A DNA stretch of 64,000 bases from Gammaproteobacteria bacterium. Its GTDB lineage: Bacteria > Pseudomonadota > Gammaproteobacteria > Pseudomonadales > Pseudomonadaceae. Where the stretch lies: the NCBI GenBank assembly GCA_023475025.1, contig JAMCWB010000004.1:62001-126000 (forward strand). The letters run 5' to 3'. A model generated the notes under the pieces. That model did no database searches. It saw only the letters and a program-made list of their open reading frames with translations, and was not told where the DNA came from. The translations under genes were made by a program, and so were the position numbers. Shown piece by piece: positions 16,438 to 17,955 of this stretch. Positions within the stretch are counted from its first letter, which is position 1; each line of letters starts with the position of its first letter.

Positions 16438-16516
16438 CGGTCACAACCGCTTGAAGCTCAACTGACGTCAAAAATCAGCTATGCTTGATAACACCAACAG
16501 CAAAGGAGTGAACCTG

Positions 16517-16918
16517 ATGTCCTATATGTATTCGATCAAGCGTTACATGGCGATCATTCTGTCTGTGGTCTTTCTGCTCGGCAGCATTACCACTGCCTAC
16601 GCCCAACCCAGCATGATCGGCACCCATGAAGTTGTTGCCGAGCAACAAATGAATGTGGACCGTGACGCCTTGCTCGCCATGCTCGATGAGAGCGAGGTCA
16701 AGGACAAGCTTGCCAGCATGGGTGTTTCGCCGGACCAGGTTGAACAGCGCATCAACAGCCTGACCGCCGCCGAATTGGCCGAATTTAACCAGCAACTGGA
16801 GAATGCCCCGGCCGGTGCCGGCGTGGCAGGGATCATAGTGCTCTTCCTGCTGGTTTTCATCATTACTGACATGCTCTGCGCGACCAATATCTACAGCTTC
16901 ATCAACTGCGTGCGTTAA
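16517..16918 (+). CDS. PA2779-family (DUF6627-like) small exported membrane protein
   Basis: 133 aa. Start 16517 is set by AAGGAG at 16503-16508. It has a signal peptide or anchor (MAIILSVVFLLGSITTAYA) and a charged, helix-rich middle (DRDALLAMLDESEVKDKLASM onward). The turn ENAPAGAGVAG is followed by a strongly hydrophobic segment (IIVLFLLVFIITDMLCA) and a short tail with two Cys. Function is unknown. It is followed after 71 bp, across a hairpin, by a C39-like peptidase gene; the pairing is also known in Pseudomonas, suggesting a functional link. Confidence 0.72.
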   Translation: MSYMYSIKRYMAIILSVVFLLGSITTAYAQPSMIGTHEVVAEQQMNVDRDALLAMLDESEVKDKLASMGVSPDQVEQRINSLTAAELAEFNQQLENAPAGAGVAGIIVLFLLVFIITDMLCATNIYSFINCVR

Positions 16919-16935
16919 ATCGCCGGTGAAGACCA

Positions 16936-16970
16936 CACTCAGGGGCGCCATGCGCCCCTGAGTGCTTTCT
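16936..16970 (+). terminator. Hairpin between the DUF6627-like and peptidase genes
   Basis: A perfect 13-bp stem (16936-16948/16952-16964) with a 3-nt loop, followed by a weakly T-rich CTTTCT. It may partly terminate transcription and set the ratio of the small protein to the peptidase. Confidence 0.6.
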
Positions 16971-16989
16971 GCTCAGGACCTCCCCTCTC

Positions 16990-17955
16990 ATGCCCCTTGT
17001 TTCATCAGCCCCATTACGCCTTGCCGCTCTGCTTACAGCCCTGCTCATGCTGGCTGCCTGTGCAGGGCGCGGCCCGCTACTGCCGGATGCCAGCGACCTG
17101 ATTGATCTGCCGCGCCAGGTCAAGCTGGACGTACCTTTTCATGCCCAGGATGAATACCAGTGCGGCCCGGCGGCACTGGCGATGGTTTTCAACCATCATG
17201 GTCTGCCTGGCCACCCTGACCAGTTAAAGGACAGGGTCTATCTGCCTGAACGCCAGGGCAGCATCCAGCTGGAAATGGTAGCCGCCAGCCGTGAACGCGA
17301 TCTGGTTGCCTATCCGCTGGCTACTGACCTGGAAGCCCTGCTGACCGAACTGGCCGCCGGCCATCCGGTGCTGGTGATGCAGAATCTGGCGTTCAACTGG
17401 CTGCCTCAATGGCACTATGCCGTGGTGATCGGCTACGACCTGGATGCGCAGCACCTGATTGTGCACAGCGGCCTGAATGAGGCACAGAATGAGCCTTTCC
17501 CGATGTTTATGCGCACCTGGGGCCGGGCTGATAACTGGGCCCGGGTAATGCTGCCAGCTGGCCGTATCCCGGCAACCGCTGAACCTTTGCGTTACCTGCT
17601 GGCGGCCAGCGAGCTGGAGCAGACCGGCCGCTTGCTGGCAGCGGCCCAGGCCTATACAAGCGCGCAGGCACAATGGCCCGAGCAACCCGGGGCAACCTTT
17701 GGTCTGGGCAATATTGCCTGGGCCCAGGGCCGCAATGCCGATGCGATCGAGCACTTCAGCCGTCTGGTTGATGATTTCCCTGACCTGGCCGCCGGCTGGA
17801 ACAATCTGGCCGTAGGACTGGAGAGCAGTGGCTGCCCCTTGAGTGCCGAGGTGGTGCGGCGGTGCGAGGATGGTGAACTTGATGCTGAATTGGGTAGACG
17901 TGTGCAGAGTGATGAGAACAATAACCTGTGTCAGTTGCCTGAGCGCTGTAAATAA
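16990..17955 (+). CDS. PA2778-family C39-like cysteine peptidase lipoprotein with TPR repeats
   Basis: 321 aa. The lipobox LLMLAAC gives a lipoprotein. The peptidase half has the catalytic Cys in EYQCGPAALAMV (about 55-65) and the His in QWHYAVVIGYD (about 140), as in bacteriocin-processing C39 peptidases. The C-terminal part (about 200-290) shows TPR-like helices (GATFGLGNIAWAQGRNADAIEHF, FPDLAAGWNNLAVGLE). Location is the periplasmic face of a membrane. Its substrate is not known; the small neighbour upstream is a plausible one. Confidence 0.8.
   Translation: MPLVSSAPLRLAALLTALLMLAACAGRGPLLPDASDLIDLPRQVKLDVPFHAQDEYQCGPAALAMVFNHHGLPGHPDQLKDRVYLPERQGSIQLEMVAASRERDLVAYPLATDLEALLTELAAGHPVLVMQNLAFNWLPQWHYAVVIGYDLDAQHLIVHSGLNEAQNEPFPMFMRTWGRADNWARVMLPAGRIPATAEPLRYLLAASELEQTGRLLAAAQAYTSAQAQWPEQPGATFGLGNIAWAQGRNADAIEHFSRLVDDFPDLAAGWNNLAVGLESSGCPLSAEVVRRCEDGELDAELGRRVQSDENNNLCQLPERCK

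Follow-up and report, generated by a model that had tools for sequence, protein, structure and literature searches.

A co-inherited C39-like lipoprotein peptidase and small membrane protein as a probable enzyme-substrate pair

The C39-like lipoprotein peptidase encoded in the 64,000-nucleotide stretch of DNA analysed here (the window) probably cuts the small membrane protein encoded directly upstream of it, at a P-A-G motif ahead of the C-terminal hydrophobic helix of the small protein. The evidence counted for this pairing consisted of the joint presence of the two genes, the lack of a conserved third gene, the near-invariant motif, the leader-like spacing of the residues before it, the match of the peptidase fold, the loss of the catalytic Cys only in a copy that lacks a partner, and the restriction of the C-terminal module to PA2779-family copies in 16 genomes. 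The two genes would form a dedicated one-to-one processing pair of the periplasm. In the proposed mechanism, both proteins would be exported by Sec, as their N-termini suggest. The small protein would lose its signal peptide and would be anchored by the C-terminal hydrophobic helix, so that both the helical domain and the motif face the periplasm. The peptidase would then grip the amphipathic helix just ahead of P-A-G, in much the way that leader peptides are gripped by C39 domains. The cut would fall at G100 or beside it and would free a soluble domain of about 70 residues from its membrane tail.

The genome containing the window is 3.10 Mb in 71 contigs. The two genes of the pair are located on the same strand and are separated by 71 bases. 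The small gene begins with ATG at 16517, has a stop ending at 16918 and is preceded by AAAGGAG, a ribosome-binding-like sequence just upstream; an alternative longer in-frame start lies at 16481. Family scans of the window neighbours, which were an MFS exporter, an FAD oxidoreductase and ETF-QO, showed that the pair is flanked by an FAD-dependent oxidoreductase and an ETF-ubiquinone oxidoreductase. The nearest named relatives at the locus were 'Candidatus Pseudomonas excrementavium' and Halopseudomonas bauzanensis, with 64% identity in the best segment, in a listing that may omit records very close to the window's own genome. The features of the locus are as follows.

16517..16918, + strand: PA2779-family small membrane protein, predicted to be exported, 133 aa, proposed substrate (NF033919, 136 bits; PF20332; open reading frame)
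16517..16603, + strand: putative signal peptide, residues 1-29, ending TTAYA and followed by QPSM (judged by eye)
16763..16801, + strand: leader-like amphipathic helix, residues 83-95 (low-confidence AF2 helix; hydrophobic spacing)
16808..16822, + strand: P98-A99-G100-A101-G102 junction motif, proposed cleavage region (conservation; AF2 model)
16823..16873, + strand: C-terminal hydrophobic helix, residues 103-119 (sequence; AF2 model)
16874..16915, + strand: short tail that contains two Cys and ends in Arg, residues 120-133 (sequence)
16936..16964, + strand: perfect 13-bp hairpin, terminator-like, intergenic (hairpin search)
16990..17955, + strand: PA2778-family C39-like lipoprotein cysteine peptidase with TPR repeats, 321 aa (NF033920, 325 bits)
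17050..17061, + strand: lipobox L21-A22-A23-C24, +2 residue Ala (sequence)
17125..17565, + strand: C39 peptidase domain, residues 46-192 (PF13529/PF03412; structural matches)
17161-17163, + strand: Cys58, within the C39 domain
17413-17415, + strand: His142, within the C39 domain
17584..17868, + strand: TPR repeats, residues 199-293 (PF13432 and others; helix run in the model)

Both open reading frames and their family features are far above chance. The small protein scored 136 bits with NF033919 (PA2779_fam, cut-off 40), over positions 2-123 of the 123 of the profile, and 125 bits with PF20332 (DUF6627). The peptidase matched NF033920 (C39_PA2778_fam) with 325 bits against a cut-off of 150, its residues 47-291 corresponding to positions 4-248 of 255, and was also matched by PF13529/PF03412 (C39) and TPR_16. 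The pair is widespread and both families are already catalogued. The initial annotation had called the system possibly unrecognised, which was only half right since both families are named in NCBIfam. No functional study of PA2778/PA2779 or of the named families was found in the open-licence literature, and no published role was found there for a pair that is common, being present in 64/274 genomes of the class. In print, a transposon insertion has been mapped to the region that separates PA2779 from bswR, a divergently oriented regulator gene (PMC3985676), a PA2779-family gene of P. stutzeri DSM4166 was among the strong constitutive promoters picked, with a strength equal to that of the reference Pgenta (PMC10155442), and the start codon of PA2778 is lost in P. 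aeruginosa clone CHA (PMC3697988). The function of PA2778/PA2779 is put to the test in none of the passages of these three papers that mention the genes.

Co-occurrence of the two families was analysed in 274 genomes of the class, and only matches over the curated cut-offs were counted. At E <= 0.001, NF033920 matched 262/274 genomes; matches below the cut-off were not counted and, among the matches listed, covered almost always the TPR half only. There were 66 copies of the peptidase, spread over 64 genomes, and 77 copies of the small protein, spread over 67 genomes, which included every one of the peptidase genomes. Three genomes (G185, G210, and G011) had the small protein without an over-cut-off peptidase. 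In G185 (locus L134), an intact small gene adjoined a peptidase gene with a broken frame, which could reflect gene decay or an assembly error, and in G210 and G011 the small gene was truncated by a contig end. Upstream of 64 of the 66 peptidase copies there was a small gene on the same strand, and the spacing between the family matches was 114-290 bases in 63 copies and 1395 in one. The two copies without such a gene were that of G214, located at a contig end, where another contig begins with the small gene and the start of the peptidase, and the second copy of G154 (L126, 2866-3831), which is an extra PA2778-family copy with no PA2779 neighbour and with the catalytic Cys changed to Gly. Loss of the partner and loss of activity appear in L126 as if they were linked.

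The raw association gave a hypergeometric P of about 2e-59 with kinship ignored, for which reason the control by taxonomic family is the better measure. Of the 36 taxonomic families with at least two sampled genomes and at least one match each, 19 were uniform, 14 showed joint change and 3 did not, the last being accounted for by the same genomes G185, G210, and G011. The small gene also adjoined the peptidase gene in 80/80 named loci, which had been collected by peptidase similarity alone, at an intergenic distance of at most 146 bases with script-chosen starts. In most loci, the two genes nearly abutted or overlapped in the same-strand order. The genomic co-occurrence put forward as a check by the initial annotation was thus borne out by 64/64 peptidase genomes, 14 of the 17 varying families and all of the named loci. 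In view of this nearly constant joint inheritance, cleavage of the small protein by the peptidase is very probable.

In four genomes, a single peptidase gene was preceded by two small genes. Five small genes, one of them with an inner stop, had no peptidase within 5 kb, the pair being present elsewhere in those genomes. Clustering of 362 ORFs around the 66 peptidase copies (ORFs of at least 80 aa, about 3 kb on either side) gave no conserved third neighbour, with no family present in more than 6 genomes. It is quite improbable that the two are envelope proteins of one operon that share a process but do not act on one another. An operon alone is no proof of contact, but 0/274 genomes had an over-cut-off peptidase without the small protein, and a peptidase with a fold akin to that of helix-Gly cutters adjoins a protein with such a motif. 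In the phylum sample, the small protein was over the cut-off in 36/299 genomes. Beyond the window's class it was over the cut-off in 15/299 genomes, 13 of them in one taxonomic family; the carriers of other classes were family f191 and two more.

The sequence of the peptidase contains the lipobox LAAC (C24), Q53, C58, H142, and TPR repeats, and family scans found no ABC transporter domain in its 321 aa. The initial description of a lipoprotein with the Cys and His motifs of C39 peptidases and TPR-like repeats, and with no ABC fusion, was therefore confirmed (LAAC; C58 and H142; TPR_16; no ABC domain). The lipobox was detected by script in 57/66 copies and in 77/80 named copies. Eight of the nine copies missed by the script showed, by eye, a Cys after a hydrophobic stretch, and the ninth (L119) was truncated by a contig end. 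Lipoproteins with a +2 residue other than Asp are sorted to the outer membrane. Asp at +2 after the lipid Cys occurred in 0/57 and 0/77 copies, the window having Ala, and so the peptidase is predicted to be on the outer membrane.

The catalytic Cys58 was kept in 64/65 copies with data, being lost only in L126, and His142 in 66/66. Gln53, which by its spacing we take to be the oxyanion position, was kept in 63/65 copies. The usual third catalytic residue of C39 enzymes is Asp. At the presumed Asp position (S160, judged by spacing), 60 of the 66 copies had Ser and 4 had Thr, and it seems that the Asp is replaced by Ser/Thr in the PA2778 family. Another papain-like enzyme also has Ser at the third position (PMC10318531).

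The AF2 model of the peptidase had a pLDDT of 93.5, and its TPR region was a run of helices. The modelled domain (residues 40-192) matched the C39-like peptidase 3erv with a Z of 16.4, the leader-bound double-glycine peptidase 6mpz_D with a Z of 15.5, and ComA (3k8u) with a Z of 15.4. The pseudomurein endoisopeptidase PeiR, which by its name is no C39 enzyme, tied with these at a Z of 15.0, so the fold match is not exclusive to C39; in Foldseek, 3erv was the best match, with PeiR second and third. Among the matches listed, PCAT1 entries had Z values of 11.9-14.9, and staphopains and cathepsins of about 11-13. The C39 peptidase fold was thus found by structural match and was accompanied by the catalytic Cys and His. 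The TPRs probably help to bind the substrate. Many of the related peptidases had four Cys at the C-terminus.

The conservation of the small protein was analysed in several overlapping sets. Relatives in alignment A1 omitted 4/77 small proteins (L133, L135, L136, and the window's own L094), and relatives in alignment A2 omitted 10/66 peptidases (L094 and nine without an automatic lipobox). Alignments A3 and A4 contained 78/80 named loci (without L148 and L170), and alignment A5 contained 43 rows picked for spread, two rows with a misplaced motif having been removed. The combined set had 155 copies, of which 150 were distinct over the last 75 residues; two small-protein sequences were common to both of its sets, and its motif counts omitted L135 and L136. 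The motif pattern applied to the combined set requires Gly/Ala in third place and one of G/A/S/E/Q in fourth place. It was found in 155/155 copies, and the pattern-free alignments agreed on the Gly (73/76 and 133/136).

The 133-aa neighbour was, as had been noted, small and export-signal-bearing: a signal-peptide-like start ending in AYA is followed later by PAGAGVAG and then by the hydrophobic stretch. The family keeps A-x-A followed by [AGS]M[VI][GS]T. The Gly/Ala turn directly before the hydrophobic stretch, also described earlier, proved to be among the best-conserved parts of the protein. In the 76 aligned copies (of 77) that reach the motif, P98 was kept in 74, A99 in 75, and G100 in 73, and only G69 (77/77) and R78 (76/76) were kept better. 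G100 was also kept in 133 of 136 rows of the second, pattern-free alignment, and the combined set had it in 146 of its 150 distinct members. The four-letter motif read PAGG, PAGS or PAGA in 67/76 copies, and the fourth motif position was G, A or S in 73/76 class-wide copies.

Among the 150 distinct copies, the residue after Gly100 was G in 49, A in 43, E in 28, S in 23, and Q in 7. Judged by their letters, the 35/150 copies with Glu or Gln, mostly from the named relatives nearest the window, do not have a double-glycine site. Their presence points either to another specificity or to a cut that follows G100, in which case P2 is mostly Ala, with Val and Thr as well. The earlier guess of a peptidase with its substrate is partly supported: it agrees with the co-occurrence, and some relatives seem to depart from the strict double-glycine specificity of C39 enzymes. 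Covariation of position 101 with the residues of the peptidase was examined in 136 pairs (56 + 80), of which 126 had a classable letter and 10 a gap. The best columns tracked one clade and were absent in the distant Gln bearer L099, so the signal was set aside as phylogenetically confounded.

Ahead of Gly100, the residues L/I/V/M/F occurred in the 150 distinct copies at -3 in 48%, at -6 in 100%, at -10 in 99%, at -13 in 93%, and at -18 in 99%, and in 11% or fewer at any intervening position. In the leaders of PCAT substrates, hydrophobic residues occupy positions -4, -7, -12, and -15 relative to the cut, and the sites end in Gly-Gly, sometimes in Gly-Ala or Gly-Ser (PMC7018657). A cut after G100 would place the first two of these positions in register and leave the last two displaced by one residue, and a cut after residue 101 would do the opposite. 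Such leader-like spacing is also expected of any amphipathic helix. The AF2 model of the small protein was weak (pLDDT 64) and, in a numbering that begins one residue later than that of the sequence, showed helices at 36-55, 58-66, 71-79, and 83-94, followed by the membrane helix. The junction was non-helical in this model, partly with a pLDDT below 50.

The likeness to the double-glycine peptidases (ComA, PCAT1, 6mpz) consists of the fold, the Cys and His, and a predicted helix of spaced hydrophobic residues before a Gly motif. PCAT exporters carry C39-fused ABC domains, whereas the window peptidase has no ABC domain and would be exported as a lipoprotein. Unlike in PCAT substrates, the motif of the small protein is on the N-side of a membrane helix, and Glu/Gln are tolerated after the Gly. 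A free-standing enzyme is known in FapD, a Sec-exported C39 peptidase active in the periplasm, whose catalytic Cys is needed for Fap secretion; its target was left unclear in the passages of the 2017 paper that deal with it (PMC5557850). By published description, the window peptidase resembles FapD as a free-standing C39 peptidase predicted to be exported to the periplasm, but FapD belongs to the six-gene amyloid secretion operon of Pseudomonas Fap, and here a TPR lipoprotein has one partner gene. If the proposed pairing is true, a free-standing exported C39 peptidase gains an obvious single candidate substrate, and a two-gene system would allow a direct test of how specific the periplasmic C39 enzymes are.

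The near-invariant Gly could also be held by the enzyme and not cut. A role of the small protein as a substrate-like inhibitor or membrane tether of the peptidase, with the Gly motif lying unreleased in the active-site cleft and the true substrate elsewhere, is regarded as unlikely. Most of the data fit such a role, and the one-to-one pairing and the near-invariant exposed Gly would fit it equally well; staphostatin B is a known substrate-mimicking inhibitor of a papain-like bacterial peptidase, and the staphopain-staphostatin pair resembles the present one in joining a papain-like cysteine peptidase to a cognate substrate-mimicking protein (PMC10254297). Staphostatin is an inhibitor, whereas the small protein is proposed as a substrate. 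Staphostatin is not known to have a leader-like helix or a membrane anchor. Against an inhibitor or tether, there was no other conserved candidate substrate gene within about 3 kb, the leader-like helix and the unstructured junction before a membrane helix resemble a cut site, and the tandem and orphan copies of the small protein are more easily understood as several substrates.

The C-terminus of the small protein, which would be left in the membrane by cleavage at P-A-G, was compared with other C-terminal signals. In the GlyGly-CTERM/rhombosortase system, a dedicated enzyme adjoins its single target in some genomes (PMC3237569; PMC6219818). The likeness to it is the tripartite C-terminus of a Gly motif, a hydrophobic helix and a basic residue, the window protein ending in Arg. 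Rhombosortase is, in the relevant passages of these papers, an intramembrane rhomboid serine protease and the enzyme here is a lipoprotein C39 cysteine peptidase, so the pair falls outside that system. A profile of the C-terminal 50 residues found nothing else better than E 0.36 in the window's own genome, and in 15 other picked genomes it gave 24 matches at E <= 0.1, all of them known PA2779-family copies. The enzyme therefore appears dedicated as far as these 16 genomes go, and the idea of more targets, or of a many-to-one sorting signal, was dropped since the C-terminal profile gave no sign of it in them. In contrast to GlyGly-CTERM, the target here is a dedicated family in the genomes searched.

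A Lys or Arg was present in the last 14 residues of 129/153 relatives and absent in 24/153. The tail always contained two Cys or none (73 and 63 of the 136 pairs; 72 and 62 of the 134 distinct pairs). This pattern could reflect a disulfide, which would contradict a cytoplasmic tail, and shared ancestry may explain most of it. In a short-tail class, the small protein ends directly after the hydrophobic stretch. The short-tail copies were a second copy (L075, L124), an orphan (L131, L132, L133) or the only partner (L110). Since the short-tail form is the only partner in G019, the tail beyond the helix is unneeded for pairing.

These tails also bear on whether the membrane part might be the product. 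Maturation of the bacteriocin or signal-peptide type, in which the hydrophobic tail of about 32 residues would be active and the peptidase would remove a leader, would agree with the leader-like helix, the small-residue motif and the C39 domain, but it is very improbable: the ORFs of at least 80 aa in the surrounding 3 kb or so include no conserved exporter or immunity gene, the tail is conserved across the sample and not diversified, the short-tail class stops right after the hydrophobic stretch, and both proteins have export-signal-like starts.

For the preferred reading, cleavage of the small protein at P-A-G, the predicted locations do not coincide, as the +2 Ala of the peptidase predicts the outer membrane and the anchor of the substrate, with Lys or Arg near its end in most relatives, fits the inner membrane. 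A reading that joins the two, in which an outer-membrane C39 lipoprotein acts on an inner-membrane-anchored partner at P-A-G as an undescribed class of dedicated C-terminal processing in Gram-negative bacteria, is speculative and unlikely. If it were true, cutting would require the partners of two membranes to meet, and the pair might serve as a sensor of the envelope state or in a sortase-like transfer of the released domain.

A likeness of the helices of the small protein to the repeats of the 'lysozyme' chain 5i8l, which is presumably a CW_7 cell-wall-binding module, was also considered. The phmmer whole-sequence E was 4e-4 and the profile E was 0.0028, and the likeness was dropped, the single repeats having i-E values of 26 or worse.

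The perfect hairpin at 16936-16964 is present as a single copy in the genome. One such hairpin was found where shuffling at the same threshold gives an expectation of 1.5, and this number by itself carries no evidential weight. A comparable intergenic gap is absent from most relatives. Among the gaps of the relatives and the window, 6/56 folded below -12 kcal/mol, with differing sequences (one gap could not be folded because of its length), and the hairpin was accordingly rejected as a feature of the family. In the window itself, the terminator-like hairpin between the two genes suggests that the peptidase may be expressed at a lower level than, or separately from, the small protein.
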